Of a stretch of DNA of 21,670 bases, positions 1-21,670 are shown one piece after another (position 1 is the stretch's first letter; every line of letters begins with the position of its first letter). The DNA comes from a virus. The translations under genes were made by a program, and so were the position numbers. The stretch spans positions 1 through 21,670 of the IMG/VR virus record IMGVR_UViG_3300036790_000655; one strand, given 5' to 3'. The notes beneath the pieces are model-generated. The model was not told the origin of the DNA and did no database searches. It saw only the letters and a list, made by a program, of their open reading frames with translations.

Positions 1-909
1 TTGTTGCGGCGAGCACACGATGATCGTTGGCGGGACGATCGCCGGCGTAGGCTGGCCTTGCACGACCTCGGCGCTCGACGGCGTTCCCAGGGCGATCTCG
101 GTGCTGACGGTCACCTGCGTCCCGGCGGCGATCGCCTGATCGCCATAGGGAATGAACTTGAGCTGGCCGCCGCTCCATACGGCGGCGCAATTGCAGATTT
201 GCAGCCAGCGGGAAAGGACGCTGGACGCCTGCTCCTGGTCGGTGAGCGCTGGACTGAAGGCGATTCCGACCGCCTTGCAATAGGTCTGCAACGACGCGTC
301 GCCGCCCGAGCCGAACAATGTCGTCGCGTCGATCGCCGCGCCGTCGAAACCGGCGCCGTACTGCGCGTTGGTCAGGAAATCGGAGACGACCAGGGCCGGG
401 TCGGCATCGATTTGATTGGCGCCAGTGGAGGAGAAGATGCCTGCGACTTCGAAATTGTGATTCGAGATTTCCGCGTTGGAGCCGAGCTGGTAGCTCGCCG
501 CGCAGGCATAGGCGGTGCCCTGGTAGGCGAGCGCCTCGTAGGGCTCCGAGGATTCAAGGTACGACCACACCGCTTGGGGCGTCGCGCCCTCGAACAAGGT
601 GAGGTCGAGATCGGCGAGGCTGTAGACCGACTGGTCCTTCCAGATCTGGTTGACGGCGCCGATCGGCCCTTCGCATAGGGCCATGATCAGATCGGCCGAA
701 TAAGTGGTGGTGGCATCCGAGTTGAAGTAGCCGCCCTTGCCGACGGAGCTTCCTTCCTGCGTCTGAAAATTGTTGTACCAGATGACGTTTGGCGCGATCT
801 TCGATTCGCCCCAGACGATGGCGATCGGCAGCGTGTTCACGGAAGTGTTGAGCTGCAGGCCGGTATAGGTCGGCGCCTGGTTGCTGTTCTTGGCGCGAAG
901 AAAGCCCAT
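1..909 (-). CDS. Phage tail tip / host-specificity protein (partial, C-terminal part outside window)
   Basis: An open frame starts at ATG 909-907 and runs off the left edge without a stop, giving 303 visible residues. It begins MGFLRAKNSNQAPTYTGLQ and continues with the beta-rich, Gly/Ser/Thr-rich style of the lambda gpJ-like / Phage-tail_3 baseplate proteins, including stretches such as TLPIAIVWGESKIAPN and ADLIMALCEGPIG that are typical of the start of these proteins. Its ATG shares the A of the upstream peptidase stop (TGATG), so it is probably translationally coupled. Last place after the hub protein and NlpC peptidase is where tail-tip receptor-binding or baseplate proteins sit. Family assignment is from sequence style and position; the receptor-binding part would lie beyond the window. 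Opposite-strand frames here are Arg-rich shadows. Confidence 0.75.
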   Translation of the reverse strand, partial: MGFLRAKNSNQAPTYTGLQLNTSVNTLPIAIVWGESKIAPNVIWYNNFQTQEGSSVGKGGYFNSDATTTYSADLIMALCEGPIGAVNQIWKDQSVYSLADLDLTLFEGATPQAVWSYLESSEPYEALAYQGTAYACAASYQLGSNAEISNHNFEVAGIFSSTGANQIDADPALVVSDFLTNAQYGAGFDGAAIDATTLFGSGGDASLQTYCKAVGIAFSPALTDQEQASSVLSRWLQICNCAAVWSGGQLKFIPYGDQAIAAGTQVTVSTEIALGTPSSAEVVQGQPTPAIVPPTIIVCSPQQ

Positions 910-1394
910 CAGCCCCCCGTCAACGCATCGCGTTCGTCTGACCTTGCCCAATAGGAGGCGAACCGCGCCTGTGGCAGCCGCCGCGCGATCGCCGCATTGC
1001 GACTGACCTGCTCCTCAAGAACGACGCGGGTCGAGGCGAAGGCGTGAACCATTGTGAAAGGCTCCGCCCGCGTCACGATGCCGCCGTGCGAGAAGCAGCG
1101 GCCATATCGAAACAGCACCACATCGCCGGGGCCGATCTCGCCGAGCGCGACCTCGCGGGCGCGCGCCAGCAGCAGCCGGAGATAGACCTCCTCGCTGCGA
1201 TGCAGATGCCAGTCGCTGGAATAGGGCCTGGGATCGAACGGCGAGACGAGGCCGAGGTCGCAGAACACGCGCACCAGAATCATCGCGCAATCGACGCCGG
1301 CGCCCTTCACGTCCGCACCAAGGTGATACGGCGTCCCGATCCACGAGCGCGCTTCCGCGACGACGGCGGCGCGCGCGGCGGCGGAAGAGCCCAT
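909..1394 (-). CDS. NlpC/P60-family tail-tip cysteine peptidase
   Basis: This 161-residue protein matches the NlpC/P60 peptidoglycan endopeptidases placed in the tail tip of siphophages and GTAs (gp14-like in RcGTA), where they open the cell wall during DNA delivery. The family's catalytic pattern is visible: Cys in GVDCAMI (residue 36), His in FSHGGIV (103) and a third polar residue in MVHAF (His117). An N-terminal ARSWIGTPYHLGA stretch is typical of the family. The ATG at 1394 shares its A with the stop of the DUF2163 gene (TGATG); a TTG three bases upstream is an alternative start. No clear ribosome binding site is seen, so coupling to the upstream gene is likely. Length is normal for a phage version without extra domains. 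Confidence 0.88.
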   Translation of the reverse strand: MGSSAAARAAVVAEARSWIGTPYHLGADVKGAGVDCAMILVRVFCDLGLVSPFDPRPYSSDWHLHRSEEVYLRLLLARAREVALGEIGPGDVVLFRYGRCFSHGGIVTRAEPFTMVHAFASTRVVLEEQVSRNAAIARRLPQARFASYWARSDERDALTGG

Positions 1395-2266
1395 CAATAG
1401 GCGATCTGCGGCGGCGGGACGAACGGGAAGCCGCGGAAGTTGGCGAGGTTGTTGAACTGCGACTGGCAGGTTCCCGGCGTGTGGTCGCAGCCCTGATAGA
1501 CGGTGAAGGAATCGCCGGTCGCCGGCGGCGCGGGCATCGGATAGGCGAGCGCCAGGCTGACCCCCGCCGTGGCGATCTTGACGGTCCCGGTGATGTCCTG
1601 ATTGGCGCCGGAGGTAAAGGTGATCGAGCCCTGCTGATGGACCGCGGCGGCGCCGGTGAAGTTGATCAGCGAGGCGGTCGAGCCGGCGCCGACGGCGCCG
1701 TTGGTCCCGAAGGCGTTCTTGATCAGCGTGCAGCCGGCATCATAAAGCGTGTGCAGGCAAGTCGCCGAATAGAGGTTCCTGGGCATGTCATAATCGAGAA
1801 TGATGAGATCGGAGGCGACCGTGACCTTGGCGCTGGTGCGCCCGACCTGGTCGACGGTCGAAATGCGCCCCTGAAAGAGGATGACGCCGCCGACCGGGGG
1901 CTGCCCGAGCGCCGACATGAAGACGCGCTGGCGCTGGAACGAAGCGCCGTCGAAGGCGCCGCCGACGAGCGCGGCGAGAAATTGCGCGCCGGCGACGAGG
2001 TCGGTCGGCCGGGCGGCGATGGTGATTTGCTGCTTGTCGACGTCGAGACCGGCGGCGCAGCGGTATTTGAGCCCTTGCACCAGCGGCCCGCTCGCCGAAA
2101 AGGTCGTCCCGTCATAGACGACGTCCCGGTCGACGTTGGTATAGGTGAGGACGAGGCCGGTCTGCGCCAGCGTGAAGGTGAAGCAGTCGGCGAAGGCGAT
2201 CGGCGAGTCGGGAGCCTTGCGCGCTGCGTTGAGAAAGTTGATGAGCGCCGTCGTCGCGGTCTTCAT
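1394..2266 (-). CDS. DUF2163 / phage BR0599-family baseplate hub protein
   Basis: The protein has 290 residues starting MKTATTALINFLN. A longer frame upstream exists, but this ATG overlaps the reconstructed stop of the preceding DUF2460 gene by ATGA and fits the family start. The C-terminal part (DHTPGTCQSQFNNLANFRGF then PFVPPP) is the signature of DUF2163/BR0599 proteins, which form the baseplate hub in GTA-like tails (gp13-like in RcGTA). Four cysteines, at about 170, 179, 260 and 267, are spaced as in lambda gpL-like hub proteins reported to bind an iron-sulfur cluster, so a cluster is plausible here. Two further cysteines (28, 70) lie outside that set. It sits between DUF2460 and NlpC/P60, the standard order. 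Confidence 0.88.
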   Translation of the reverse strand: MKTATTALINFLNAARKAPDSPIAFADCFTFTLAQTGLVLTYTNVDRDVVYDGTTFSASGPLVQGLKYRCAAGLDVDKQQITIAARPTDLVAGAQFLAALVGGAFDGASFQRQRVFMSALGQPPVGGVILFQGRISTVDQVGRTSAKVTVASDLIILDYDMPRNLYSATCLHTLYDAGCTLIKNAFGTNGAVGAGSTASLINFTGAAAVHQQGSITFTSGANQDITGTVKIATAGVSLALAYPMPAPPATGDSFTVYQGCDHTPGTCQSQFNNLANFRGFPFVPPPQIAY

Positions 2267-2881
2267 GTGCTGCGCACGCTGCGGAATTTCAGGCTGTCGA
2301 CCTTCCACAGGTTCTGCATGAACTGCTCGAAGTCAGAGGAATCGTCGAGAAAGCGGCACTGGAAGGCGTAGTCGAAGGTCGCAGTGATGACGGCGCCGGA
2401 ATCCCGGCGCCGAATTGAACACCAGCGAATTGGGCGTCATCAGCGACCAGCCGGAAGCCTGGTTGACGCCGTTGAAATAGACGTTGGCGATCGATGTCAC
2501 CCAGCCGACCGGCTCGGTGAAGCCGCCGAGCGAGCGCCCCATGGTGAAGGTCGTTGTCGAGCCGTCGCCGGTGGCGATGCCCTGGTTGGTCGCCGCATTG
2601 TCGGTCGGGTCGGCATAGAGGAATGTTCCTAGCTGCCCGGCGCTTTGCAGGAACAGACCCATCAGGCTTTGCAATGATTGCGCGCCGAGGCCGGGATAGT
2701 TCGACGAGCTCGAATCAAGGCCGTCGAACACCAGTTCGAACTCCCACAAAGGATATTGCCACAACGAATCGCGGACCTCGCGGCCCGACGCGGAGTTCGC
2801 GACGATGGTGTTGAAGCTCGGCTTTTTGTGAACGCTCCAGCCCTGGCCGGCCAGCGTCGGGAAGGATGGCGGCGTGGTCAA
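2263..2881 (-). CDS. DUF2460 distal tail protein, frameshifted near the C-terminus
   Basis: DUF2460 proteins form the distal tail ring joining tail tube to baseplate (RcGTA gp12-like). The start is probably TTG at 2881, overlapping the TGA of the upstream gene, which puts the SFPTLAGQGWSVHKKP motif near the N-terminus as in the family. As sequenced, the frame ends at 2333 after a non-family tail (PGFRRRHHCDLRLRLP). Skipping one base at about 2400-2401 restores the family C-terminus: GAVITATFDYAFQCRFLDD, then SSDFEQFMQNLWKVDSLKF, ending at a TGA that overlaps the next ATG by ATGA. That perfect junction argues the restored frame is ancestral. The simplest event is one extra T in GGATTCC. The corrected product would be 205 residues. 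A real mutation, a sequencing error or programmed frameshifting are all possible. Confidence 0.82.
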
Positions 2882-5472
2882 AAGCGCACCGTCTGCAGTT
2901 TCACCGTTTTGAACGTCCACAGCATCGCCATGAATTCCTCGAGATCGACGAAATCGTCTGAAAAGCGGCACAGCATCAGCAAGCCGAAATCCGCGGTGAC
3001 CGAAACGCCCGCGGCGGGCGGGGGCGCGATCGTCACCATGGGCGCGGCGCCGGCGCTGATCGCGTAGCGCGAAGCTCCGAGCGGGGCGCCGTCGAGATAG
3101 ACCGCCGACACGCCCGACGTTCCCTGCGCCGCCGCGCTATAGCCGCCGGCCGTCGCCAACAGCGGAAAGACGCTCGTCGAGCCGTCGCCGGTTCCGATCG
3201 CTTGCGCGGCAAGGCTGGCGAGGCCCGGCGGGGCCACCCAGAACGGCGTCGCCTTTCCCAGCATCGCCGCGAAAAACCCCGCGACCTCCTGCAATTCGGC
3301 GTAAGCGGCGGCGCTGCGCAGCAGCTCGTAGGTCAGTTCGATGTCGTAGAGAGGCGCGGCGTAGCGCGATCGCCTCACCGAGCGGCCGGAGACGAGGTCA
3401 GCGACATCGGTCGCGAACCGCGGCGAGATATGCGTCGACCAGCCGAGCGTCGTCAGCGTCGGGAAGGATGGGTAGCTTGCAGGCGCCGGCGGCGGCGATG
3501 ACTGGGCCGGCGGCGTCGCCGGGCCGCGGCCGCCGAGCCAATCGCCATAGGCCCAGTTGCCGGCGTCGCCCCACTCGCCTGTCAGCAGGGGGAAAGTCGG
3601 AAACGGCCGCGCGTCCCAGTTCCACACGCAGCAGAACGCAAATTGCAGCAGGGCGACGCCGGTCGCCGACACATTGTTGGCGCCGCCGTTCCAGTATGCG
3701 TAGATCGCCCGCAGCGCGGTCAGCGCCAGCGTGTCGTCGCGGAGCGGCAGACGGCCGCCGCCAGGGGTCGCCGTCCACGTCGACCAGAACGGGGTGAAGC
3801 TCTCGACCGAGGCCGGATTATAGAAAACGTTGGGCTGGTTGGTTCCCTTGTCGACCGCCGGAAAGCCGTATTCGACGAAGGCGATCGATTTCGATTGTGG
3901 AATCCATGCGGTTTGCGGCCCGTGCGGCGACCAGCCGGAGCCATCGCCATTGTCGTAGATCGCCTGGTGCGGATTGCTCCACCACCAGCGCAACTGCTTG
4001 TTGGCGAGCAATTGCTGGTTGGGATAATAGGGATTGCGCTTCTGGGCGAGCCGATCGCCCTCGCAAAGCGAAACCTGCTGGTCGGAGCCGAGCGGGTCGA
4101 GGCCCGGCCCATCGTTGTTCGAGTCGTTATAGAACCAGTCGAAATACTGGCCGCCCTCGATATTGGCCTGAAGATAGGGGACCGACGGAAGCGTCGGCGC
4201 CCCGGAAAGCCCGAGCCCACTGGCCGCGCCAATCGCCGGCGGCCAGGCGACGGCGATCGCCGCGCCGCAGTCCGTGGTCGAGGCGACCGCCCCCATGGTG
4301 TGACCGCAATCGACGCTCTGGCGGGCGGTAATCGTCACCAGGCCGGCGTCGCAATAGCTTTGACCGGGCGCCGGCGCGTTCCAGTTGGCGACGTCCAAGC
4401 CGCCTTGCGTCGTCCAGTCGGACAGCGGCAGGTAATTGTCGAAACCGACGAGGTCGATGTTGGCGTCGGCGAATAGCGAATCCAGGTGCGGCCATTGGCC
4501 GTTCTCGCCGGGGTGCTGGAACCCCATCCAGTCCGACCAGTCGGCGGAATAGGCGATGAGGTTGTTCAGCGTCGAAAGATTCCTGGTCAGCCCCTGGCTG
4601 TCGAAGATCGTCCGGACATCGTTGGCGAGCGCCTGCAGGCCAGCGACAAACGGATAGTCCCAGATCGCATGGCCGGAGCCGTCGGTCGCTCCCGCCCTGG
4701 TCCAGGCCGGCCCGCGAATGGTTTCGAGGCCGCGCAGCTCCGAGCCCAGCAGGAAGAGATCGACGCCGCCGGCGATCGTCATCAGCCAGGCGTAATGCAG
4801 GATCATCCGGCGATAGGTGTAATCGGTCGGCGCGCCGGAATAGGCGACCGTCAGGTTGAGCGGGTCCGGCGTGAAGTCGGCAATCGTCGCCGCGCCGAGG
4901 AAGGCGTCGACCGCTGCGATGGCGGCGCTAGAGACATCGCCTGAGAAATAGCTGATGCGGCCGCGCCACGGCAGGCCCGGCGCGGTCATCAGGATGAAAG
5001 GGTAGAAGACCACGCGAAAGCCGCGCGCCTTCAGATCCCGGACGCAGCGCACGATGCTCTGGTCGGACGGCGTGCCGCCATAGATGAAGCTGTCACCGCT
5101 TTGCGGAATCGGGATCAAGCCTGGCGAGGCCTGCGTCAGGCCCGACACGCGCCATTCGTCGGCGATCCAGGCCCCGCCGGAAAGTTGCCCGAAGGAACCG
5201 CCGACATAGGTGGTCGCGGGATAAATCTGGCAATAATCGACGGTCTCGTTGTTCCCGAACCAGGCGCAGACCACCGAGACCGTCGTGCATTCGGGATGGG
5301 CGGCCTGGAGCTGGTCGATGGCCACCGAATAATCGGTGTAGGCGCCCCCCTGGCCGTAGAACGTATTGAGGCCGAGCATCGCGCCGCCGAGGCGCTGACC
5401 CTGATGAGCGATCGTGTCGTAAGTAAACTCGCCGGTCGAGGGCAGCAGGTGCACGCCGCCGATGTAGCCCAT
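2878..5472 (-). CDS. Baseplate TIM-barrel (GTA_TIM-like) protein fused to a DUF2460 domain
   Basis: This 864-residue protein starts at ATG 5472 behind a strong GAGGAG ribosome binding site. Residues 1 to about 650 resemble the glycoside-hydrolase-like TIM-barrel domain of GTA 'megatron' baseplate proteins. Strand-end motifs include LLGSELRGLE (Glu245) and FVEYGFPAVDKG (Glu534), the kind of acid pair a retaining glycosidase would use, though activity is unproven. A Pro/Ala linker (about 651-668, PATPPAQSSPPPAPASYP) leads to a complete DUF2460 domain (669-864) with SFPTLTTLGWSTH at its start and CRFSDDFVDLEEFMAMLW near the end. In RcGTA the TIM barrel belongs to the gp15 protein and DUF2460 is a separate gp12. 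Here they are joined and placed upstream of a second, stand-alone DUF2460 gene. It probably builds the distal tail/baseplate and may degrade surface polysaccharide. Confidence 0.85.
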   Translation of the reverse strand: MGYIGGVHLLPSTGEFTYDTIAHQGQRLGGAMLGLNTFYGQGGAYTDYSVAIDQLQAAHPECTTVSVVCAWFGNNETVDYCQIYPATTYVGGSFGQLSGGAWIADEWRVSGLTQASPGLIPIPQSGDSFIYGGTPSDQSIVRCVRDLKARGFRVVFYPFILMTAPGLPWRGRISYFSGDVSSAAIAAVDAFLGAATIADFTPDPLNLTVAYSGAPTDYTYRRMILHYAWLMTIAGGVDLFLLGSELRGLETIRGPAWTRAGATDGSGHAIWDYPFVAGLQALANDVRTIFDSQGLTRNLSTLNNLIAYSADWSDWMGFQHPGENGQWPHLDSLFADANIDLVGFDNYLPLSDWTTQGGLDVANWNAPAPGQSYCDAGLVTITARQSVDCGHTMGAVASTTDCGAAIAVAWPPAIGAASGLGLSGAPTLPSVPYLQANIEGGQYFDWFYNDSNNDGPGLDPLGSDQQVSLCEGDRLAQKRNPYYPNQQLLANKQLRWWWSNPHQAIYDNGDGSGWSPHGPQTAWIPQSKSIAFVEYGFPAVDKGTNQPNVFYNPASVESFTPFWSTWTATPGGGRLPLRDDTLALTALRAIYAYWNGGANNVSATGVALLQFAFCCVWNWDARPFPTFPLLTGEWGDAGNWAYGDWLGGRGPATPPAQSSPPPAPASYPSFPTLTTLGWSTHISPRFATDVADLVSGRSVRRSRYAAPLYDIELTYELLRSAAAYAELQEVAGFFAAMLGKATPFWVAPPGLASLAAQAIGTGDGSTSVFPLLATAGGYSAAAQGTSGVSAVYLDGAPLGASRYAISAGAAPMVTIAPPPAAGVSVTADFGLLMLCRFSDDFVDLEEFMAMLWTFKTVKLQTVRF

Positions 5473-10150: not shown

Positions 10151-11659
10151 TCAGCCGTTGCCGATATTGGTGAGAATGCCGACGCCGAACGGCGCATAGA
10201 CCGCCAGAACCTCTTCGGCGTAGACGCCGAACTCGCGGCGGCGCGTGCGCACCGGCCAGTCGATGCGATAATAATCGCGCCGGGTCAGAACTTCCGCGAC
10301 GTTGGGCGTCTCGTTGGACTGGTACCAGACGGGCAAGCGCTCGCAATAGGCGAGCATCGTTCCCGGCGGCAAGCCAGGATGGACCATGATCGGAATGTCG
10401 AAACCGCCATCGACGCTGAACGGGTTGTAATACCAGCGCACGACGCCGGAAGCCGACACGCCGTAGGGCCCGCCGCGATCAGCGTCCGCCGTGACGTTGT
10501 AACGGATCAGCGGGCCGGAGGAATTGGTCAGGCACTTATTGGTGATGTTCTTCTGTTCCTGCGCGTTCACATAGAGGACCGTCGGCGACAGCCGGTAGGC
10601 GCTCCACATCTCGAGCAGCATGTTGTCGATCTCGACGACCGAACCCCGCCCCGACGCCGTCAGGAAGGAGCCGGTTCCCGCGGTTCCGGCGCTCATCGCC
10701 TCGACATAAGCGCTATTGGCGGGATTGAAGCCAATGGTCAGCAGGCCGTCGAAGGCGAGCGTCGAGTTGCGCGAGCAATCGTCGGTAATCGCCGACACCG
10801 CCTGTTGGCCGCTCGCCAGCGGCGCCGCGATGGCGAGGCTGTTGATCGTCGTGATCGCCTGCAGCGTTTCGGAGCCCGAGGGGCCGACATACCAGGCATA
10901 GGCGACGGCGCCGACGACGTTTCCGACCGTCGCGAACAGCGTCTCGCCCAAGGTGACCGCCTGCGTTGCGTTGGCGCTCTTGTTCGATGAGCCGCCGTTC
11001 AGCGCATAGGTGTTGCCGTCGTTGCCGGTGATCGTCTTGGCCGTTGCGACGCCGGCCGCCAGCGACGAGTTGGAATAGCCCTCGAGCGTAAGCGCGGCGA
11101 CGATGACCGAATAGGTTGCGGCGGGCAGCGTCGCCCCCGATCCCGACGCGGCGAGCGTCGGCGTCGCCGGCGTGCCGAGGGCGAGCGACGCGTTTCCGCC
11201 GAGCAGGCCGGTCTCTTCCTTGCGCATGGTCTTTTGCAGCAGGCGCAGGGTCGCCGTGGCGTTGATGTCTTCGTAGCCTTGCGCGGCGGCCTCGGCCTCG
11301 AAGGTTACCGTGTCCTCCTCGCCGAGCGTCATGTAAGGCGCGACCTGCAGGTTGGCGACGTAGGACATGCTGGCGGAACGCTGGCCTTCCGGCACCCAGC
11401 CGATGGCGTCGAAGCCCGAGCCGGCGATCGAGGAGATCGTCCGCCAGCGCGCTGCGTCGCCCGGATTGACACGCTGAACGCGAGGGATCGAATTGCGCAG
11501 CGGCGTGATCGTCGGATAGAGATTTTTTGCCGGCGCCTGCAGATCGTATGCCGAGAGGCCCGTTGCGATCGTGACGTTCTTGGCGAGCGCCTCGTCGGGA
11601 TGGGCGAGCGATTCCTTGGTCAGACGCAAGGTTTCCTCGGTCGTTTGCGCAATGCTCAT
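10151..11659 (-). CDS. Major capsid protein with an inserted Ig/FnIII-like domain
   Basis: This is a 502-residue protein from ATG 11659 (AGGAA upstream). The N-terminal part (SISSIAGSGFDAIGWVPEGQ-like region, APYMTLGEEDTVTFEAEAAA, LLQKTMRKEETGLLGGNASL) and the C-terminal part (IDNMLLEMWSAYRLSPTVLY, PGTMLAYCERLPVWYQSNET, RRDYYRIDWPVRTRRREFGV) are those of an HK97-fold capsid protein. Residues about 162-283 are a Thr/Ser/Gly-rich insertion (PATYSVIVAALTLEGYS-like start, GAVAYAWYVGPSGSE near the end) with the look of an Ig/FnIII-type surface domain, as seen on several phage capsids. The N-terminal LRLTKESLAHP shares sequence at DNA level with the 3' end of the protease gene. Unusually, the capsid is separated from the protease by a cargo cassette and an intergenic space. 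Confidence 0.86.
   Translation of the reverse strand: MSIAQTTEETLRLTKESLAHPDEALAKNVTIATGLSAYDLQAPAKNLYPTITPLRNSIPRVQRVNPGDAARWRTISSIAGSGFDAIGWVPEGQRSASMSYVANLQVAPYMTLGEEDTVTFEAEAAAQGYEDINATATLRLLQKTMRKEETGLLGGNASLALGTPATPTLAASGSGATLPAATYSVIVAALTLEGYSNSSLAAGVATAKTITGNDGNTYALNGGSSNKSANATQAVTLGETLFATVGNVVGAVAYAWYVGPSGSETLQAITTINSLAIAAPLASGQQAVSAITDDCSRNSTLAFDGLLTIGFNPANSAYVEAMSAGTAGTGSFLTASGRGSVVEIDNMLLEMWSAYRLSPTVLYVNAQEQKNITNKCLTNSSGPLIRYNVTADADRGGPYGVSASGVVRWYYNPFSVDGGFDIPIMVHPGLPPGTMLAYCERLPVWYQSNETPNVAEVLTRRDYYRIDWPVRTRRREFGVYAEEVLAVYAPFGVGILTNIGNG
11597..11623 (-). repeat. Short direct repeat, capsid-side copy
   Basis: On the plus strand, GGGATGGGCGAG, six unmatched bases and CTTGGTCAG occur here and again at 14002-14028 in the same orientation and spacing (21 of 27 identical). 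Here the copy encodes LTKESLAHP in the capsid N-terminus. The two copies flank the cargo cassette. Confidence 0.55.
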
Positions 11660-13947: not shown

Positions 13948-13983
13948 GGACGGCCTCGTTTCTTGCAACGACGGGCTTTGGCG

Positions 13984-15087
13984 TCACAGCCGCGGCGCGA
14001 TGGGATGGGCGAGGCTGAGCTTGGTCAGCGCCAGGGCGCGCTCCGTCGGCGCGAGCGCCGAAAGACGCCGCACGGCTTCGTCGATCGACGAGACGCGTTC
14101 GGCTTCGATGCCGTCGGCCGACTTGGAAACGGCGCGCAGCGCCGCCCTGGCGGGCAGCGGTTGCGCCTCCAGCGTTGCGATGCGCAGCGACAGCGCGTCG
14201 AGTTCCGGCGCGAGCTCGTTGAGGCGGGTTCGCAGCGCCGCCGTCTCGCCGAGCGCCTTGACGAGCGCGGGGGAGGGGGGCGCCTCGACGGGGCTCGGCT
14301 GGGCGGCCGGCGGCGCTGCGATCTTGGCAGTCGTTGAATCTTGCGAATCGGCGGCGGCCTCGGACCCAAATTCGTCCGCATCCGCCCCCGCAGAAATCCG
14401 GGCGGCGAGCGCCTCGGCTTCGCGTTTCAGGCTCTCGCTCAGCGCGCGCGCCATTGCGATGAGGCGGACGATTTCGGCGAGCCGCTGCGCGTCGTCGCGC
14501 TCGTCACCGTCGGCGGTCGCATCGGCCGCGTCGTTCTCGTCATCGTCGCCTGCCAAGTCTGCGGCGGCATCGTCCTTGCCCGCCGCCTTGGCGGCGAAAG
14601 CGCGGCTGACGGCCACGCCGTCCTTGACGATTTCGAACGTCGCCGCCGCGACGGCGGGCAGATCGACCAGCGAAATCTCGCTGGGTTCGGCGGTGTAGCG
14701 GGTGAACTGGCCGCCGGCGTCCGGCCAGCGCCTGACATAGCGGCCGCCCTGGCTGAAGCCGGTGTAGACGCCTTCCTCGACTTTCCGCCACTCGTCGTCG
14801 TCAACGATCTTGGCGGCGACCATGATGCGCTTGCCCGCATCATCGAAGGCGATGTCGGTGATCTTGCCGGCGGCGACGCGGCCGTGCATGGCGCGCAAGG
14901 CGCCCAGCGACTTGCCGCCGCTCGCCTCGTTCATCTGCGCCGACCAGGCCTTGTAGTACGGCTTGGTCGATTCGTAGTCGCAGATTTCGCCGGCGCGGTC
15001 GGGCGCCTCGGCGGTGGCCACGCCGTAGACCACGCGCTGGTCGGCATCGACCTTGGTGATCGGCAAAAAGAGCAGCAGTTCGGACAT
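13984..15087 (-). CDS. HK97-type prohead protease with C-terminal scaffold-like extension
   Basis: ATG 15087 (MSELLLFLPITKVDADQRVV) has GGAG five bases upstream and is preferred to ATG 15102. The product has 367 residues. Residues 1-160 resemble phage prohead serine proteases: RAMHGRVAAGKI (His68), VYTGFSQGGRYV (Ser112) and the typical SEISLVDLPA (137-146). A very acidic stretch follows (about 172-202, LAGDDDENDAADATADGDER), then Ala/Glu/Leu-rich segments likely to form coiled coils. The C-terminal 200 residues therefore look like an internal scaffold, a common fusion in this phage type. The protease cuts scaffold and capsid during head maturation. The last residues, LTKLSLAHP, are repeated near the capsid N-terminus. 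A promoter-like element lies 157 bp upstream. Confidence 0.82.
   Translation of the reverse strand: MSELLLFLPITKVDADQRVVYGVATAEAPDRAGEICDYESTKPYYKAWSAQMNEASGGKSLGALRAMHGRVAAGKITDIAFDDAGKRIMVAAKIVDDDEWRKVEEGVYTGFSQGGRYVRRWPDAGGQFTRYTAEPSEISLVDLPAVAAATFEIVKDGVAVSRAFAAKAAGKDDAAADLAGDDDENDAADATADGDERDDAQRLAEIVRLIAMARALSESLKREAEALAARISAGADADEFGSEAAADSQDSTTAKIAAPPAAQPSPVEAPPSPALVKALGETAALRTRLNELAPELDALSLRIATLEAQPLPARAALRAVSKSADGIEAERVSSIDEAVRRLSALAPTERALALTKLSLAHPIAPRL
14002..14028 (-). repeat. Short direct repeat, protease-side copy
   Basis: This is the partner of 11597-11623: 12 identical bases, 6 fully different, then 9 identical. Here it encodes LTKLSLAHP at the very end of the protease gene. 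The cargo cassette lies between the copies. Confidence 0.55.
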
Positions 15088-15475
15088 GAGGGCTCCGGAC
15101 ATGAAGACGCGAAGGGGCGGTGGCTCCGCTGCGAGAGGGCGCGCGGGCGAAGGACGATCAGCTTGTGCGGAAAGGTTCGGGAGAGGACGGCGCCGCTTCA
15201 GCGGCGGGCAGCCGCTGCGGCGGCCACGTTTCCCAATCTATGCATTATGCCGCTTGCGGCGTAACGAAGCAAGAAATTGTTCTATGTTTGTTCGAACCGA
15301 CCGCATTTCCTACAAGCGACGCCAATCCGCACGTAGTTGAGTCTGCAACATAATTCCTGAGGTAAATCAGATGCCGCCGGCGCGACGCCATACGCTGTGG
15401 TCTTCGCTCTGATTGGAGGGGGATGTTCATATCAGCGGGATCCCTGTCACCCGACGGCGAAGCCTCATCTGGACG
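15088..15475. other. 388-bp intergenic stretch upstream of the protease gene
   Basis: The part from about 15240 to 15390 is clearly richer in A/T than the cluster. It contains the 29-bp promoter/operator-like element (15244-15272). A 61-codon minus-strand frame (15430-15245, starting MNIPLQSERRPQRMASRRRH) is open but has no recognisable family or good ribosome binding site, so I do not call it. It could be a remnant of an accessory gene. No terminator is obvious after the zinc-finger gene. Confidence 0.6.
15244..15272 (-). promoter_or_regulatory. 29-bp promoter/operator-like element, copy A (protease/capsid)
   Basis: On the minus strand it reads TTGC-TT-CGTTACGCC-GCAAG-CGGCATAAT, i.e. TTGCTT, 17 bp, CATAAT. 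The spacer and -10 contain the dyad TTACGCC-N6-GGCATAA (6 of 7 arm positions symmetric), and in this copy also a perfect GCCGC-AA-GCGGC palindrome. The same element with 22 of 29 identical bases lies upstream of the terminase genes. It probably drives the protease gene 157 bp downstream and may bind a dimeric regulator. Confidence 0.6.
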
Positions 15476-15844
15476 TTAGATCAGCGAGTCCTCGCGATCT
15501 GAGCATAGGATGGAATGAAACGTCGCCACGCACTCGTTGCAGATGAAAACCTCAGGACCGGCGCCCAGTCGAACCTCAGGGGCGGCTTTTCCGCAGAAGG
15601 AGCAGGCGAGGCTCCGCGGGTCTTTCGCTTGGCCGTCTTTGCCTTTTTGCAGGCCGGCCGAACTTTGGCGGATGAATTCGATTGCGATCTTGTTTAGGGG
15701 CGATGCCTGGTTCCCCTTTTCGCCCAAAAGCAGGGAGCAGGCGTTGATAAGACAATCGTAATGGCGATTGCTCACCCAATCGTCCGCCATCTTCGACAAT
15801 CTGCGTTTTGTCTCCTCGTCGAAGCCTACGGGTTCGTTCGGCAA
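15476..15844 (-). CDS. Small protein with ClpX-type C4 zinc finger
   Basis: The start is TTG 15844, supported by an excellent GAGGAAG binding site five bases upstream. The 122-residue product has a helical N-terminal part (DEETKRRLSKMADDWVSNRH, IEFIRQSSAGLQKG). Near the C-terminus is a four-cysteine finger, CSFCGKAAPEVRLGAG...FICNECV, with cysteines 81, 84, 102 and 105. This is the ClpX zinc-binding domain pattern, but there is no AAA+ ATPase. Such stand-alone domains may bind partner proteins or dimerise. It is the second of two small genes behind the portal, in DNA of lower GC than the virion genes, so it is probably part of an exchangeable accessory pocket. Whether it is an immunity protein, regulator or proteolysis adaptor cannot be told from sequence. 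Confidence 0.75.
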   Translation of the reverse strand: MPNEPVGFDEETKRRLSKMADDWVSNRHYDCLINACSLLLGEKGNQASPLNKIAIEFIRQSSAGLQKGKDGQAKDPRSLACSFCGKAAPEVRLGAGPEVFICNECVATFHSILCSDREDSLI

Positions 15845-15954
15845 TTACTTCCTCGCTCTTTGACCTCGCGGCTCCGACCGGCGCGGAGGGTTTGCAGCCG
15901 CTTGAAAACGAATTCGAGCCAGCGGCCCGAAAGAGGGCGCTCTTTCAACACTTC

Positions 15955-16371
15955 TCAGCTCTTTCGCGCCTGGCAGGAAAGGCTTTCGACTACGCCGTCA
16001 GTTCCGGAAGCCGTCAAGGTCCCGCGAAGGTCTCCCAGTTCGAAGCGAACGGCGAGGTCTCCGCCGAATTTGGAATGAATGATCTGCTGATGATCGCCGA
16101 ACGTCACGCCGGCGACATCTCGGTAGGAAATCTGAGAATTCACGAACAGAAGAAAGAGGGTGCGCCGCGGCTTAAGCCCCGCGGCGACGTCGACCTCGGC
16201 GCCGTTGCTAAGCCGGGCGCCGTGAATCCCCAGACTTGCTGGTTTGGCTACGGTTACGTTCGCTGCCGACATATCGAGACGCAAGGTCGCGGCGGTCGAC
16301 TCCGCGCTTGGAAAGTCGGGAGTCTCCAGCGCATGAACCATATCGGAAAGAATATCGCGAAGGTCAATCAT
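15955..16371 (-). CDS. Small unrecognised protein behind the portal (candidate immunity protein)
   Basis: A 138-residue protein starts at ATG 16371, nine bases after the end of the portal's in-frame extension, and begins MIDLRDILSDMVHALETPDF. The rest alternates strands (ESTAATLRLDMSAANVTVA, PRRTLFLLFVNSQISYRDVA, GGDLAVRFELGDLRGTLTAS) and ends in SLSCQARKS. No signal peptide, membrane segment or known motif is visible. The size, the position immediately behind a protein with a payload-like tail and the lower GC fit an immunity gene, but that is inference. The frame ends 110 bp before the zinc-finger gene start, with nothing clear in between. Confidence 0.6.
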   Translation of the reverse strand: MIDLRDILSDMVHALETPDFPSAESTAATLRLDMSAANVTVAKPASLGIHGARLSNGAEVDVAAGLKPRRTLFLLFVNSQISYRDVAGVTFGDHQQIIHSKFGGDLAVRFELGDLRGTLTASGTDGVVESLSCQARKS

Positions 16372-16380
16372 TGGATTCTT

Positions 16381-16533
16381 TCAATACGGTAGCAAAGGCG
16401 AGATTGTCATTCCCGCTAGGCACTCTTTGTTTCTGCGGAGCACGCCCTCCATGCAAAGTTTGTAATGATGGAAGTCGCCGTCGAAGATCGCAGAGTGGCA
16501 TATCGCCCAGTCCGACTCCCATAGCTCGTCGCA
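16381..16533 (-). pseudogene. In-frame continuation of the portal beyond UGA: cysteine-rich payload tail or its remnant
   Basis: Directly after the portal's TGA (16536-16534) the same frame stays open for 50 codons: CDELWESDWAICHSAIFDGD, then FHHYKLCMEGVLRRNKECLA, then GMTISPLLPY, ending at TGA 16383-16381. Its spacing C-x10-C-x14-C-x10-C followed by G-x2-I-x-P-L resembles, from memory, the cysteine-rich C-termini of some polymorphic-toxin-type proteins. No start codon lies at its beginning. The next gene starts nine bases after it, as if this were the true end of the portal gene. A nonsense mutation, readthrough of UGA, or a decayed toxin tip are all possible. Confidence 0.5.
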
Positions 16534-17943
16534 TCAGATATTGGCTCGCTGCACTTGGCCTGTCGACGAGGATGCGTTGGCGCCCTCGTCGGTCCATCGC
16601 CCATTCTCGTCGCGCGGCTGATCAAGATTGAACCCGCCCTTGATGACGCTTCCGGCTTGCGGCCCTCCCGCCGCCGCCCCTCCCGCCGCCGCCAGCCCGA
16701 GGTCGGCGCGCGCCTCGTCGGTCGTCTTGATGCCGGCGCCGACGAGGATCTGCAGGGTCTGCGCCTGCTGCAGCGGATCGATGGCGTCGTCGCCGACCCA
16801 GACGAATTCGAGGTCAGGCGCGCCGAGCCAGCGCGCGATCACCCGGTCGAGCGCGTCCTTGATCCACGCCTTCAGGGGAATGACCCCTTCCTGCGCCGCC
16901 TGCAGGCGCAATGTCTCGCTGGTGGCGCGGTTGACCTGCGAGACGAAGGCCGAGGCCGGCACCGAAAAGGCGTAACAGATGACGCGCGCCAGCCATTCGT
17001 CGTACTGGTCCTTCAGCGGCGGCTGGCGCGTCTCGACCAGGCGGAAATCCGACGGCATGAATTTCAGCATGCGCCGGCGGCCGAGATTGCCGGCCATCAG
17101 CGCGTCGAAATAATCCTGAAACTGCCGGATCTGATCGACGGTCCATTCCTTCGGCAATGTCGCGAAGGCGTCGGGCGCCGAACCCGAGCGATAATATTCG
17201 AGAGTCGCGACGTCGCGCCTCAGCGCGATATTCACTGTCATGGCGATCTGCTCAACCGGGCTCATGCCGTAGAGCCGGTTTGCCCGCGGGTTGCGCGGCA
17301 ACACCATCAGCTCGTCGCTTGAGAAATCGGCGGCCGGCACGCCATGCAGCACCTGCTGCCAGGCGGGATCGGGCGGCTCGGGCGAGCGCCCGTCCTCGCC
17401 GATCAGCGGCTTGATGGTCGCCCCGTCGATGATGTCGAGGCTGTAGAGCGCGCCGGACCGCGTCAGGCGGGGATAGATGGTCGCCGCGTCGATCACCAGC
17501 ATGTCCTCGAGCAGCATGCGCAGCCACGCCGCGAACGAATGGCGACGGTCCGGCCGGTCGAAGAAGGCGAGCGCCGCTTTGGCGCGCGGCGCGGCCGCAG
17601 CGGCGGCGGAGGGATCGCGCGGGCGAATCGAATGGTCGAGGGCGGCGATCTGGTCCTTGCGCGTCTCGATGACCGTGCGCAGCAGCGGCAGGGCGTCGGC
17701 GAGCGCCCTGAGCTCGGCGAAGCCGATGCCATTGTCGGCGCGCGGGATGTAATTGAGGTTGACGCCGAAAGGATAGTCGAACTGCCGCCCCTTGACCTCG
17801 GGCGGCGCCATCGGCGCGAGCGGCTGTTGCGGTCCGAACCAGGTGTCAGGCGCAACGCCCGTGACGACGAAGCGCGTCGCGCTGGCGAGGCGGGCGAACA
17901 GGCTTGGCGGCAGCGGCGTCATGGTTCCGTCGAGTTGCGGCAT
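16534..17943 (-). CDS. HK97-family phage portal protein with payload-type linker at its C-terminus
   Basis: ATG 17943 (MPQLDGTMTPLPPSLFARLA, GGGAAAG upstream) gives 469 residues; ATG 17922 is an alternative. The portal ring forms the DNA entry/exit pore of the head and binds the terminase. Family features include FGVNLNYIPRADNGIGFAEL, VIETRKDQIAALDHSIRPRD, NRLYGMSPVEQIAMTVNIAL, GRRRMLKFMPSDFRLVETRQ and VICYAFSVPASAFVSQVNRA. The last 32 residues depart from a normal portal: FNLDQPRDENGRWTDEG, then a Ser-rich tail. The same NxDQPR...WT linker precedes the nuclease domain of the protein encoded at 12949-13947. The frame continues in phase beyond the stop. Its 5' end faces a divergent plus-strand gene, so it probably needs its own promoter or transcription from the terminase side. 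Confidence 0.87.
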   Translation of the reverse strand: MPQLDGTMTPLPPSLFARLASATRFVVTGVAPDTWFGPQQPLAPMAPPEVKGRQFDYPFGVNLNYIPRADNGIGFAELRALADALPLLRTVIETRKDQIAALDHSIRPRDPSAAAAAAPRAKAALAFFDRPDRRHSFAAWLRMLLEDMLVIDAATIYPRLTRSGALYSLDIIDGATIKPLIGEDGRSPEPPDPAWQQVLHGVPAADFSSDELMVLPRNPRANRLYGMSPVEQIAMTVNIALRRDVATLEYYRSGSAPDAFATLPKEWTVDQIRQFQDYFDALMAGNLGRRRMLKFMPSDFRLVETRQPPLKDQYDEWLARVICYAFSVPASAFVSQVNRATSETLRLQAAQEGVIPLKAWIKDALDRVIARWLGAPDLEFVWVGDDAIDPLQQAQTLQILVGAGIKTTDEARADLGLAAAGGAAAGGPQAGSVIKGGFNLDQPRDENGRWTDEGANASSSTGQVQRANI

Positions 17944-18014
17944 CGCGATCTTTCCCGTGAAGGCCTTCGCCCGTTGCTGTTCGCGGCGGCGAGGCGCGCC
18001 GCCGCGGCACAGCG

Positions 18015-18043
18015 TTGTCCGCTGCAAACGCCGCGTCTATAAG
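18015..18043 (+). promoter_or_regulatory. Candidate promoter of the exported-protein gene
   Basis: TTGTCC, a 17-bp spacer and TATAAG form a good sigma70-like promoter about 25 bp upstream of the plus-strand ATG at 18068, giving a short leader. The -10 box sits exactly in the loop of a 10-bp perfect palindrome. Confidence 0.55.
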
Positions 18044-18053
18044 CGCGGCGTTT
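18026..18053 (+). repeat. Perfect 10-bp inverted repeat around the -10 box
   Basis: AAACGCCGCG (18026-18035) and CGCGGCGTTT (18044-18053) are perfect inverted repeats separated by TCTATAAG, with a run of five T ending at 18055. It can be read as an operator over the promoter, as a leader hairpin, or as an intrinsic terminator for rightward transcription entering from the portal side. Confidence 0.65.
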
Positions 18054-18067
18054 TTGGGGAGACGGGC

Positions 18068-18406
18068 ATGATTCGGCGCCTGGCGTTTGCGCTGGCTTCG
18101 CTGATTCTGGCGGCTGCGCCGGCGGCGGCCGCCGAACGCTGGACGTTCTGCGTCGCCTCGACGCTCGGCGCCAAGGACGTCTGGATTACCGAAGTCTTCC
18201 CCGCCGCCGACCGCGAGCGGCTCGAGGCGCAATTCAAGGAAGTGCTTGAGCGCCAAGGCGTGGCGCGCGTCGTTGCGCAATGCCCGGCGCCGAGCGACGA
18301 CAAGACGAGCGTCGTCAACGCCCAGACCGCCGCCGAGGAATTCAATCGCAAGCTCGGCGCCGCTCTGCATTCGGTGTCGATGCAGGAGTTTCCGCCGCGC
18401 CGCTAG
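18068..18406 (+). CDS. Small exported protein of unknown function (moron-like)
   Basis: ATG 18068 has GGGGAG seven bases upstream; the product has 112 residues. Residues 1-22 (MIRRLAFALASLILAAAPAA then AA) are a classic Sec signal peptide with cleavage before ERWTF. The mature part is about 90 residues, with two cysteines (28, 72) that could form a disulfide, an amphipathic helix (ADRERLEAQFKEVLERQGV) and a C-terminal helix. No family is recognised. It is the only plus-strand gene in the particle cluster, placed between large terminase and portal, where RcGTA-type clusters have none. It has its own promoter-like site, which is how phage 'moron' genes look. An exported, possibly periplasmic role for the host cell is an inference; a residual host gene is also possible. 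Confidence 0.7.
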   Translation: MIRRLAFALASLILAAAPAAAAERWTFCVASTLGAKDVWITEVFPAADRERLEAQFKEVLERQGVARVVAQCPAPSDDKTSVVNAQTAAEEFNRKLGAALHSVSMQEFPPRR

Positions 18407-18407
18407 A

Positions 18408-18436
18408 CTGGAGCGAGATGCGAAAAGTGGCTCCAG
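18408..18436. terminator. Weak hairpin between convergent genes
   Basis: CTGGAGC and GCTCCAG form a 7-bp perfect stem with a 15-base loop in the 31-bp gap between the ends of the exported-protein gene and the large terminase gene. There is no T tract, so termination is only possible by position. Confidence 0.3.
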
Positions 18437-18437
18437 C

Positions 18438-19841
18438 TCATCGCTTGCGCGCCGCGTCGCGATAGAACTCCACCATGCCGGAGCGTCCGGCCCCGTCGAG
18501 ATTGATGAGATCGGCGATCGCCCAGACCAGCGCGTCGGCCCGGTCGGGCGAAAAGCCGGCCGAGCGCCCGTTGAAGTCGGGCGTCAGCGCGCAGAGCTGA
18601 TCCTCCAGCTTGGCGAAAATTCCGACATGATGCACCAGGCCGCGTTCATAGGCGGCGGCGACCGGTTCGGCGCGCAGATATTTGCCGCGCGTGGCGGTCA
18701 CCGGCCGCACCGGCAGATTGGCGTCGCACTGGCGGAGCACGTCAGCGACCATGTCGCCGCCATTGTTGACCTCCGCCACCACGCGATTGGCGGAAAAGCG
18801 CCGGTAGGCGGCGACGATGCGGGCGGCCCAGGCCGCCGGCGTCTCGCCCTGGCTCGAAAGGTCGGCGAGCACATAAATCGCCCCGTTGGCGGCTTTTGCC
18901 GCGACGATGATTCCGCATTCGTCGGCGCGCGCGCCGGAAACCGCCGGCGGATCGACCGCGATGACGATTTCGGCATAGTCGCCCGGCGCCGTCGCGCCGG
19001 AAACCCGGCCGCGCTCGATCAGTTCGCGCGTCCACAGGGCGCCCGGCGTTTCCTCGACGATCTCGGCGAACAGCTCCTGGCGGCCCAGCCGACTGCCCTC
19101 ATAGCGGGCGGCGATCCTCGCCAGAAAGGCCTCGGCGAGGTGCTCGGAATTGTCGAACGTCGCGCCATGCGTGACGATGGCGTCCTTGTCGGCGATGAGC
19201 CGCTTGATGAGCTTGGTCGGCCGCGGCGTCGTGGTGATGATCGCCTGCGGCGAGGGGCCGAGGCGCAGCCCGAGCAGCGCCTGATCGAAGGCGTCGGGAT
19301 AGCGCCAGGCGGCCAGTTCGTCGCACCACAGCTTCATGTGCTGCTTGCCGCGCAGCCGGTCCGGCTCCTCGGCCGAGAACAATTGCGAGACCGCGCCGCT
19401 CGGCCAGTTCAGCCGCGCGGCGGAGCGCGCGTAATGCGGCCGTTCGTCGGTGCGGCAGCAGGCCAGCACGCCGGACTGGCCGAGCACCATCACGTCGCGC
19501 GCATCGTCGGCCGTGGCGCCGATAAGATTGACGATCGGATGGGTCTTCACCCATTCGCGCACCGCTTCGGCGCCGGCCCGCGTCTTGCCGGCCCCGCGTC
19601 CGGCCAGGATCAGCCAGTAGATCCAGTCGCCTTCCGGCGGCAACTGGTCGGTGCGCGCCCAGAAGCGCCAGTCGCGCAGCAGCCGCTCGCCGAGCAAAGG
19701 ATCAAGGTCGGCGAGCCATCGCAGCCGCTCGCTTTCGCTCATCGAAAACAAATCGCGGATGGTCGGCCGCCAGGCGCCGTGAGCGCCTGGCCCTTCGGCG
19801 CTTCCGGCGGCTTTCGCGGCGCGGCGCCGCTTGGCCGTCAT
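18438..19841 (-). CDS. Terminase large subunit (packaging ATPase/nuclease)
   Basis: This 467-residue protein starts at ATG 19841, overlapping the small terminase stop by ATGA. The ATPase half has Walker A GRGAGKT (81-87), Walker B LWCDEL (171-176) and the coupling motif TTTPRP (203-208). The nuclease half has the RNase H-like acidic residues AVDPP (Asp297), VVAEVNNGGD (Glu357) and SPDRADALVWA (Asp436). Length and motifs match GTA gp2-like large terminases, which translocate DNA into the head and cut it. All catalytic motifs are intact, so the packaging enzyme looks functional. The gene is separated from the portal by a convergent plus-strand gene, an interruption of the usual terL-portal adjacency. 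Confidence 0.94.
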   Translation of the reverse strand: MTAKRRRAAKAAGSAEGPGAHGAWRPTIRDLFSMSESERLRWLADLDPLLGERLLRDWRFWARTDQLPPEGDWIYWLILAGRGAGKTRAGAEAVREWVKTHPIVNLIGATADDARDVMVLGQSGVLACCRTDERPHYARSAARLNWPSGAVSQLFSAEEPDRLRGKQHMKLWCDELAAWRYPDAFDQALLGLRLGPSPQAIITTTPRPTKLIKRLIADKDAIVTHGATFDNSEHLAEAFLARIAARYEGSRLGRQELFAEIVEETPGALWTRELIERGRVSGATAPGDYAEIVIAVDPPAVSGARADECGIIVAAKAANGAIYVLADLSSQGETPAAWAARIVAAYRRFSANRVVAEVNNGGDMVADVLRQCDANLPVRPVTATRGKYLRAEPVAAAYERGLVHHVGIFAKLEDQLCALTPDFNGRSAGFSPDRADALVWAIADLINLDGAGRSGMVEFYRDAARKR

Positions 19842-20272
19842 GTCGGACTGGCGGCGCGCTGGCGGCGAGCGGTCATGTCGGCGAGCTTCCTCATCAGCTC
19901 CTCATAAGCCTGATCGACCAATTGCGGCTCCGTTGGCGCCGCCTTCGAGAAGCCGTGATAGCGATCAAGGCGATCGAACACCTTGAGGATGCGATCGACG
20001 GCGCCGAGGTCGCCGCCGGCGGCCTGCTCGATCAGCTTGCCGACCATCGCCTCCAGTCGCCGGATTTGCAGCTTGGCGTAGTCCCTGGTGGGCCGGATCG
20101 AGATGGCGTTGAGCTCGGCGCGCACAATCTTCTCAACGCGCGCCCGCGTATGGTTGCGGGCGTCGGCGATGGCCTCGATGCTTCGGCCGGCCGCCAGCAA
20201 ATCCAGAACTGGCGAGGCCGGCGGCGCCAGCGCAATTTCGCCGGCGCCCGGCGATTTCGGCGCTGGCCGCAT
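19838..20272 (-). CDS. Terminase small subunit-like DNA-binding protein
   Basis: This is a 144-residue protein from ATG 20272. An N-terminal helix-turn-helix-like stretch (VLDLLAAGRSIEAIADARNH, TRARVEKIVRAELNAI) is followed by a helical region (DYAKLQIRRLEAMVGKLIEQ, GAVDRILKVFDRLDRYHGFS) of the type that oligomerises small terminases. Direct coupling (ATGA) to the large subunit supports the role of recognising DNA for packaging. Its length and style resemble GTA gp1-like proteins. A 19-bp tandem repeat sits just upstream of the ATG, a place where a packaging or autoregulatory binding site could be. No strong Shine-Dalgarno is seen (GGGAAGACTC precedes the ATG). Confidence 0.8.
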   Translation of the reverse strand: MRPAPKSPGAGEIALAPPASPVLDLLAAGRSIEAIADARNHTRARVEKIVRAELNAISIRPTRDYAKLQIRRLEAMVGKLIEQAAGGDLGAVDRILKVFDRLDRYHGFSKAAPTEPQLVDQAYEELMRKLADMTARRQRAASPT

Positions 20273-20280
20273 GAGTCTTC

Positions 20281-20318
20281 CCGATGTTGTGGAGGTTTGC
20301 CGATGTTGTGGAGGTCTG
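20281..20318 (-). repeat. 19-bp tandem repeat upstream of the terminase genes
   Basis: Two adjacent copies of the 19-bp unit CCGATGTTGTGGAGGTTTG / CCGATGTTGTGGAGGTCTG (plus strand) differ at one base. On the minus strand they read CCTCCACAACATCGG twice in phase, about two helical turns apart. They end eight bases before the small terminase ATG, downstream of the promoter-like element, so they would lie in the leader mRNA or form a protein-binding site (packaging start or operator). Confidence 0.8.
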
Positions 20319-20386
20319 CCGCGCGGCGCGGGCGGCGCGCTAGGCTGCGCTGACGCGGTTCCGACGCGCCATCTTCAATGTGCCAG

Positions 20387-20415
20387 ATTATGCCGAGGAT
20401 GGCGTAACGCGGCAA
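20387..20415 (-). promoter_or_regulatory. 29-bp promoter/operator-like element, copy B (terminase)
   Basis: On the minus strand it reads TTGC-CG-CGTTACGCC-ATCCT-CGGCATAAT: TTGCCG, a 17-bp spacer and CATAAT, with the dyad TTACGCC-N6-GGCATAA between the hexamers. It lies about 115 bp upstream of the small terminase ATG and just past the end of the DUF805 gene. It matches copy A upstream of the protease gene at 22 of 29 positions with identical spacing. It probably starts the packaging-gene transcript. Confidence 0.6.
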
Positions 20416-20491: not shown

Positions 20492-20971
20492 CTAGCGCCG
20501 GGCGCTTTCGGCGAACCCCAGGTCGGCGATCGTCCACATCACCGCGGCAAGCGCCGCGGCGTCGAACACAAAAGCCAGCCAGGCGGGCATGAGGCCTTCC
20601 GAACGCGGCTGATACCAATGGGCGGCGGCGGCCAGAAACAGCGCGAACGGCGCGAGGCCGGCAAGCGCCGGCGGCTGGCCGCGATCGGCGAAGCGCTTGG
20701 CGCTGACGAAATATTCGGCGACCGCGCACAGCAGCAGAACGAAGGCGTAGACGATCAGATAGACGTAGGCGGCGGCGACGCGCAGGTCGATCAGCCCCTC
20801 GCGCGCAAGATCGCGCATCTGGCGCGGCGCCACCAACAGCCAGACAAGCGTTGCGACGAGCGCGATGGCGACCGGCGGCCACACGGCGCGGCGCCACGCG
20901 CGCCGATCGATGACGCCCTCGCCCTGCCGGTAGAGAAACCGAAAGCGCTCGCCGCCAAAGGCCGGCTTCAT
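20492..20971 (-). CDS. DUF805-family inner-membrane protein
   Basis: ATG 20971 shares its A with the dapD stop (TGATG); the product has 159 residues. Four membrane helices are visible, at about 30-49, 66-90, 101-119 and 128-149. The N-terminal FRFLYRQGEGVIDRRAWRRA and the SAKRFADRG motif after helix 2 match DUF805, where a KRxxDRG-like motif follows the second helix. Function is unknown for the family. Coupling to dapD, an arrangement I recall from Hyphomicrobiales chromosomes (often followed by dapE), marks this as host DNA. The particle cluster begins about 75 bp downstream with its promoter-like element. Confidence 0.8.
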   Translation of the reverse strand: MKPAFGGERFRFLYRQGEGVIDRRAWRRAVWPPVAIALVATLVWLLVAPRQMRDLAREGLIDLRVAAAYVYLIVYAFVLLLCAVAEYFVSAKRFADRGQPPALAGLAPFALFLAAAAHWYQPRSEGLMPAWLAFVFDAAALAAVMWTIADLGFAESARR

Positions 20972-21670
20972 CAATCCCTCAACAATTCGTTGATGCCCGT
21001 CTTGGCGCGCGTTTGCGCATCGACCGTCTTGACGATGACCGCGCAATAAAGCGCGGGGCCGGGCGAGCCATCGGGCAGCGGCCGGCCAGGCAGCGATCCC
21101 GGGACCACCACCGAGAAGGGCGGCACATAACCGAACTGGATCTTCCCGGAAGCGCGGTCGATGATCTTCGTCGAGGCGGACAGGAACACCCCCATCGACA
21201 GAACCGAGCCCTCGCCGACGATGACCCCCTCGACGACTTCCGAGCGGGCGCCGATGAAGCAATTGTCCTCGATGATCGTCGGATTGGCTTGCAGCGGCTC
21301 CAGCACGCCGCCGATGCCGACGCCGCCGGAAAGATGCACGTTCTTGCCGATCTGCGCGCAGGAGCCGACGGTGACCCAGGTGTCGACCATCGTGTTGGAA
21401 TCGACATAGGCGCCGAGATTGACGAACGAGGGCATCAGCACGACGCCGGGCGCAATGAAGGCCGATTGCCGCACCACGCAATTGGGCACGGCGCGAAAGC
21501 CGGCTTTTGCGAACGCGGCGGCGTCCCAGCCGGCAAATTTCGAAGGCGCCTTGTCGTACCATGCGCCGCCGCCGGGGCCGCCGGAAATCACCTGGTTTTC
21601 ATTGAGGCGGAACGACAGCAGCACCGCCTTCTTCAGCCATTGATGAACCCGCCATGCGCCGGCGCCGGCG
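20971..21670 (-). CDS. dapD: 2,3,4,5-tetrahydropyridine-2,6-dicarboxylate N-succinyltransferase (5' end outside window)
   Basis: The visible 232 residues (of roughly 280) begin before [20 protein letters not shown] and end GINELLRD. DapD transfers succinyl from succinyl-CoA to tetrahydrodipicolinate in the succinylase branch of lysine and meso-diaminopimelate synthesis, in the cytoplasm as a trimer. The left-handed beta-helix repeats are plain ([20 protein letters not shown], then [20 protein letters not shown], then [20 protein letters not shown]). So are the family-specific [20 protein letters not shown] and the C-terminal [20 protein letters not shown]. It is intact as far as seen and is the clearest chromosomal anchor here. 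Confidence 0.95.

Follow-up and report, generated by a model that had tools for sequence, protein, structure and literature searches.

The window analysed here, a 21.7-kb IMG/VR contig (21,670 nucleotides; all of its features described below lie on the minus strand), carries the genes of a phage-like head and tail together with two copies of a short promoter-like element, which raises the question of what these elements are and what switches the genes behind them. The gene set comprises terS, terL, portal, protease, capsid, tail and GTA-type baseplate genes. The small terminase subunit gene terS (19838..20272) was assigned by position and conservation, and is followed by the genes of the large terminase subunit (18438..19841) and portal protein (16534..18027). 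The head maturation protease gene (XkdF-like, 13984..15102) is the first gene of the capsid module, and its real start is likely the second ATG, at about 15087. No library match was obtained for the candidate major capsid protein (10151..11659), which was named from position and conservation (75-88% identity in close relatives). The baseplate genes (909..5472) encode a megatron-like TIM barrel with a DUF2460-like part, a TIGR02218 hub and NlpC/P60. The order of the genes fits an RcGTA-type cluster; among the GTA profiles, TIGR02218 scored above its cut-off, and NF048004 (megatron), TIGR02217 and TIGR02219 scored below theirs.

The host genes dapD (partial) and a DUF805-like gene (20492..21670) mark a conserved chromosomal address. 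The dapD neighbour is common to the window, L003, Roseiarcus, Methylocapsa and G031, mostly along with DUF805; in L008 the cluster is located elsewhere, not on the dapD side. No integrase or replication genes were noticed in the inspected ORFs, with part of the ORFs annotated, and isolated phages included no close relative, the best protease match being 51% over 42% of the query. These features fit a domesticated GTA-like cluster beside dapD in Beijerinckiaceae-type Alphaproteobacteria.

The initial annotation reported a 29-bp element in two copies, one upstream of the small terminase gene and the other upstream of the protease and capsid genes, and we recovered both, promoter-like and in register, with 22 of 29 bases identical (20415-20387, reading TTGCCGCGTTACGCCATCCTCGGCATAAT, and 15272-15244, reading TTGCTTCGTTACGCCGCAAGCGGCATAAT). 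The TTGCNN and CATAAT hexamers at 17 bp spacing were borne out in both copies. Copy 1, at the small terminase gene (20387..20415), has the -35 TTGCCG, the spacer CGTTACGCCATCCTCGG and the -10 CATAAT; copy 2, at the protease and capsid genes (15244..15272), which is supported by its homologues, has the -35 TTGCTT, the -10 CATAAT and the 17-bp spacer CGTTACGCCGCAAGCGG containing the half-sites TTACGCC and GGCATAA. The dyad TTACGCC-N6-GGCATAA described previously is thus present in the window, though imperfect (6/7 pairs). From the end of the element, it is about 115 nt to the terS ATG (20272) and 141 nt to the listed protease ATG (15102). Transcription from the protease promoter is predicted, according to the position of the -10, to start close to 15237, and a conserved initial transcribed sequence was found at 15227..15239 (AGATTGGGAAACG here, consensus YACANTGGAGAT), as well as at the terS promoter (20369..20381, ACATTGAAGATGG).

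Identity of 22/29 is by itself not rare: across the whole window, 245 such pairs occur in the real sequence and 39-49 (about 45) in shuffled ones, and the case for a promoter pair therefore rests on conservation. When the comparison was confined to the paired 250-nt upstream regions, 22/29 was reached in none of 200 shuffles (maximum 20). The idea that two unrelated stretches resemble each other by chance, which the window-wide shuffles might encourage, is refuted because the element is conserved in dozens of relatives, and its probability is practically nil. Judged by their sequences, both elements are sigma70-type promoters, homologous to each other.

In about 40 relatives, the element was found again upstream of the homologous gene for protease or terminase. 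The initial annotation had named copies scattered over the host genome as a refutation. Methylocapsa sp. S129, Roseiarcus and Rhodoblastus served as the closest genomes, and the element is not scattered: a search of Methylocapsa sp. S129 (6.9 Mb) with three mismatches allowed returned two sites (C42:79,537 and C42:90,781), the terS and protease promoters of its cluster, and the reversed control pattern gave no match there. In 298 genomes of Methylocapsa's family, searched with a longer pattern and again three mismatches, five sites were found, every one within a cluster and before terS or the protease gene. Among 2.9 million viral contigs, the core pattern TTGCN4TTAYGCCN6GGCATAAT occurred in three, each time before a homologous protease gene, and a composite pattern (the core with an upstream GAAC-N7-GAAC) matched 22, of which the cross-checked ones are protease loci and agree with the loci reached independently via the protease protein.

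Conservation is confined to the promoter module, as shown by the mean pairwise identity of 28 non-redundant protease-upstream copies. It amounts to 0.84 in the -35, 0.87 in the left spacer, 0.53 in the right spacer, 0.69 in the -10 and 0.56 in the initial transcribed region; the GAAC-N7-GAAC segment upstream of the -35 reaches 0.81. Identity is at chance level outside the module: the upstream flanks give 0.28-0.38, and the sequence 75 nt or more downstream gives 0.31-0.33.

The initial annotation stated that the element matches no LexA box. This is true of the 29-mer, and a LexA box as part of it was rejected, as the box lies upstream; it is false for the unit that is conserved, since 6 nt 5' of the -35 there is a perfect GAAC-N7-GAAC direct repeat (GAACAAACATAGAAC, 15279..15293). 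Previous studies give the LexA box of Alphaproteobacteria as GTTC-N7-GTTC (PMC3323433; PMC12700426), and the repeat is this box on the opposite strand. It is the sole exact GAAC-N7-GAAC within the window, and the exact box is found at a fixed offset in 26 of the 28 non-redundant protease-upstream copies, against a background density of 0.049 per kb. Resemblance to alphaproteobacterial LexA/SOS promoters extends to the exact direct repeat, the 7-nt gap and the adjoining sigma70 promoter, and the lexA genes of Methylocapsa and Roseiarcus also have such a box upstream. Unlike at those lexA genes, where the box is just downstream of the -35, it is just upstream here, and unlike at typical SOS promoters, the genes under predicted LexA control are phage head genes. 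Centred near -50, the box could act weakly or could be an activator site. In Roseiarcus, a lone match to LexA-plus-TTG with two mismatches (G002:C290) had no recognised cluster gene in the 1.7 kb inspected there.

LexA control is not universal, because the box is absent at most terS copies and in one clade of protease copies (L005, G069, G141). Among the terS copies, only L008, L051 and L067 possess it; the 5' sequence of promoter copy 1 in the window (GCGAAACAAAACA) contains no exact box, so LexA would not directly control the packaging genes there or in most of the group. The absence of the box from some copies, together with the A/T-rich sequence 5' of the -35 in a window of 66% GC, could be explained by plain strong sigma70 promoters that are similar by descent or gene conversion, with an UP element upstream and an incidental LexA match. 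However, an UP element does not require GAAC words, and these words are kept with their exact 7-nt spacing in 26 of 28 copies between flanks at chance identity, which makes this explanation quite improbable.

We consider it probable, from the arrangement of genes and sites, that the locus is a GTA-like cluster at dapD with two homologous sigma70 promoters, of which the capsid one is repressed by LexA and hence SOS-inducible. The cluster would be a vertically kept GTA-like head-tail unit, in which promoter copy 1 would drive terS-terL-portal, and promoter copy 2 would drive protease-capsid-tail, restarting transcription 3' of the point where a cargo hotspot breaks up the operon. Host LexA would bind at 15293-15279, abutting the -35, and repress the capsid module, and DNA damage would release it.

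The spacer is a further conserved part of the promoter. Its left half-site, TTACGCCG, is near-invariant at the protease promoters and is the most strongly constrained part, which supports selection on the spacer, and a further factor may bind there. The initial annotation proposed a dedicated regulator acting on the spacer and switching both transcripts together. The first half of this proposal was partly upheld, since selection does act on the spacer; however, no regulator was identified, and the dyad is not generally kept. Seven protease copies (L207, L210, L211, L213, L214, L218 and L009) have lost the right half and kept TTACGCCG, with one base differing further to the left in L210. Five terS copies (L279, L280, L283, L284 and L286) have an altered left half and keep GGCATAGT, and these sit on contigs matching protease copies without the right half. 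A palindrome serving as the shared operator of both promoters is therefore not general, and the dyad as one operator common to both promoters in all clusters was ruled out by these half-site losses. Joint switching by one regulator is likewise unproven, because the protease promoter carries a LexA box and the terS copy in the window is without it, so that the two promoters are not equipped with the same regulatory sites.

A stronger version would have a dedicated repressor or activator on TTACGCC-N6-GGCATAA switch both promoters jointly, with LexA in a secondary role. The high conservation of the left spacer half agrees with it, as does the retention of both halves, or nearly both, in the window and Methylocapsa copies, and in sister clusters an S24 repressor gene is accompanied by a motif, TGGG..CCCATTGAC, at both promoters. 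It is contradicted by the loss of one half in several protease copies and of the other half in terS copies of the same contigs, and no regulator gene was recognised beside the window-type cluster of Methylocapsa. We regard joint control through the dyad as rather unlikely; a dedicated regulator acting at the spacer half-site itself may exist. LexA repression of the capsid promoter remains our preferred reading, to which we add, with less certainty and by analogy, that TTACGCCG and the conserved initial transcribed sequence may be read by RNA polymerase with another factor, much as, in Caulobacter, GafZ recognises the palindrome in the spacer of the GTA promoter.

Four sister clusters (L088, L089, L011 and L012), whose terL is about 60% identical to that of the window, bear on this second factor. 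L088 and L089 adjoin ppdK-yjbQ-meaB, and both encode GafZ (recognised by DUF6456), as their loci reach that far. All four have a GafY gene (named by position) beside an S24 repressor gene retaining the Ser/Lys residues. The key catalytic residues of RogA of Caulobacter have been described as absent. The gafYZ promoter, TTGAC(A/G)-18-TATGTT, has a LexA box over its -10 in all four clusters (L088 8438-8452, L089 8274-8288, L011/L012 558-572), with the S24 repressor gene divergent. In the intergenic regions of the four clusters, the -35 of the gafYZ promoter and that of the terS promoter are both overlapped by the TGGG..CCCATTGAC motif, likely the operator of the S24 repressor. In L088 (14230-15354) and L089 (12757-13815), the portal-protease gap is occupied by a hisC-type aminotransferase gene on the opposite strand.

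The terS promoters of the sister clusters contain the spacer palindrome GGTCGACC and are followed by a terminator-like hairpin and U-run before terS. Their initial transcribed sequence, CACGTTGAAGAT or close variants, resembles CACATTGAAGAT of the window and is close to the ACATTGAAGATGG of the window's terS promoter. In Caulobacter, a palindrome between the -35 and -10 of PgtaT is required for GafZ loading (PMC11150451), and by analogy the sister layout matches that of GafZ antitermination. One could accordingly propose that the spacer element and initial transcribed sequence of the window recruit a Q/GafZ-like antiterminator for read-through of late-operon terminators, as the palindrome, the near-identical initial transcribed sequence, the terminator before terS and the GafZ gene of the sister clusters would suggest. 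However, neither GafZ nor GafY was detected by profile searches in Methylocapsa and Roseiarcus (G001 and G002), the GafZ profile having a same-run positive control with E < 1e-145 and the GafY profile being run without one, and no clear terminator was found in the leaders behind the two promoters of the window. We consider this explanation unlikely, and below joint control through the dyad. A Gaf activator, which characterises RcGTA-type clusters, is present in the sister clusters and was not found in G001/G002. It is conceivable, though speculative, that a Beijerinckiaceae GTA-like family has lost GafYZ, has wired its capsid operon straight to the host's SOS repressor and has TTACGCCG read by a spacer factor. 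In that case, DNA damage would trigger particle production, and it would do so in the sister clusters as well, with LexA acting one step higher, at gafYZ.

The need for two promoters is illustrated by clusters with a different gene order. In G069, terL lies about 21 kb from the protease module and host genes are located directly 5' of the protease gene; therefore, each module needs its own promoter. In L009, the portal gene is downstream of the capsid gene, and on the L083 contig the protease module is ahead of terS. The packaging and capsid modules are separable, each with its own promoter. In the window, they are parted by the cargo hotspot at the 3' flank of the portal gene, where two cargo genes of 138 aa and 122 aa (ClpX C4 zinc finger; 15476..16371) lie between the portal gene and promoter copy 2. 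Cargo and truncated copies of the portal gene accumulate between portal and protease, and the internal promoter would restart transcription beyond this gap.

Truncated portal copies with variable start points were observed between the full portal gene and the protease gene in many clusters (L003 5830-6660; L005 4602-5317; L007 4713-5081; L008 8958-9178; L067 7071-7601; L084 5374-5976; L085 2990-3367; four copies in L014), as though recombination within the portal gene had brought in cargo time after time. Near the portal and capsid genes (window 11999-16371; L168 3470-6646; L299 16429-19405 in reverse strand numbering), the cargo resembles polymorphic toxin-immunity cassettes by its sequence: it shows 'DQPR(V/D)...G.W' linkers with C-termini that vary, an EVKTT stretch weakly resembling a nuclease, and a weak match to an immunity protein. 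In the cluster or close to it, cargo genes for a helicase, for a Fic-like protein and for a RES-Xre-like pair were also seen (L083 158-2155; L086 18382-19488; L051 2781-3912); they are possibly defence or toxin-antitoxin genes.

The promoter pair suggests how a head-tail operon withstands repeated insertion of cargo genes. With LexA boxes at the structural promoter of one lineage and at the gafYZ promoter of its sister, the idea of gene transfer switched on by DNA damage becomes directly testable in cultured Methylocapsa sp. S129. Recipients of Caulobacter GTAs have been reported to survive DNA damage with the help of repair templates that the GTAs supply (PMC9632790). In the literature covered, neither the structural genes of a GTA nor gafYZ were described as being under direct control of the SOS response.

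Compared with known systems, the locus resembles the Caulobacter CcGTA, whose PgtaT is controlled by GafY, GafZ, IHF and RogA, in having a head-tail cluster and a conserved element between the -35 and -10, and the sister clusters further share GafZ and GafY homologues and a gene for a LexA-like S24 repressor. Unlike CcGTA, window-type clusters have no detectable GafZ or GafY (two genomes), two promoters and a LexA box, and the spacer sequence of the window differs from the GCGCCCG-CTGGCGC of CcGTA. The Rhodobacter RcGTA (GafA, CtrA) has a related cluster architecture, and LexA also influences its GTA output; that effect is indirect, via cckA/CckA, and the common promoter of the structural genes is bound by GafA (PMC6363796), whereas here a LexA box is located directly on the structural-gene promoter. 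Another comparison is the late promoter P3 of Bacillus phage GIL01, where host LexA acts directly at the capsid-gene promoter together with a phage-encoded factor (PMC6182141), just as LexA is predicted at the capsid promoter here, with a candidate further factor. The phage and its LexA box are unrelated to ours; at P3 there are two boxes, and the activator site for gp6 lies at -43.5.
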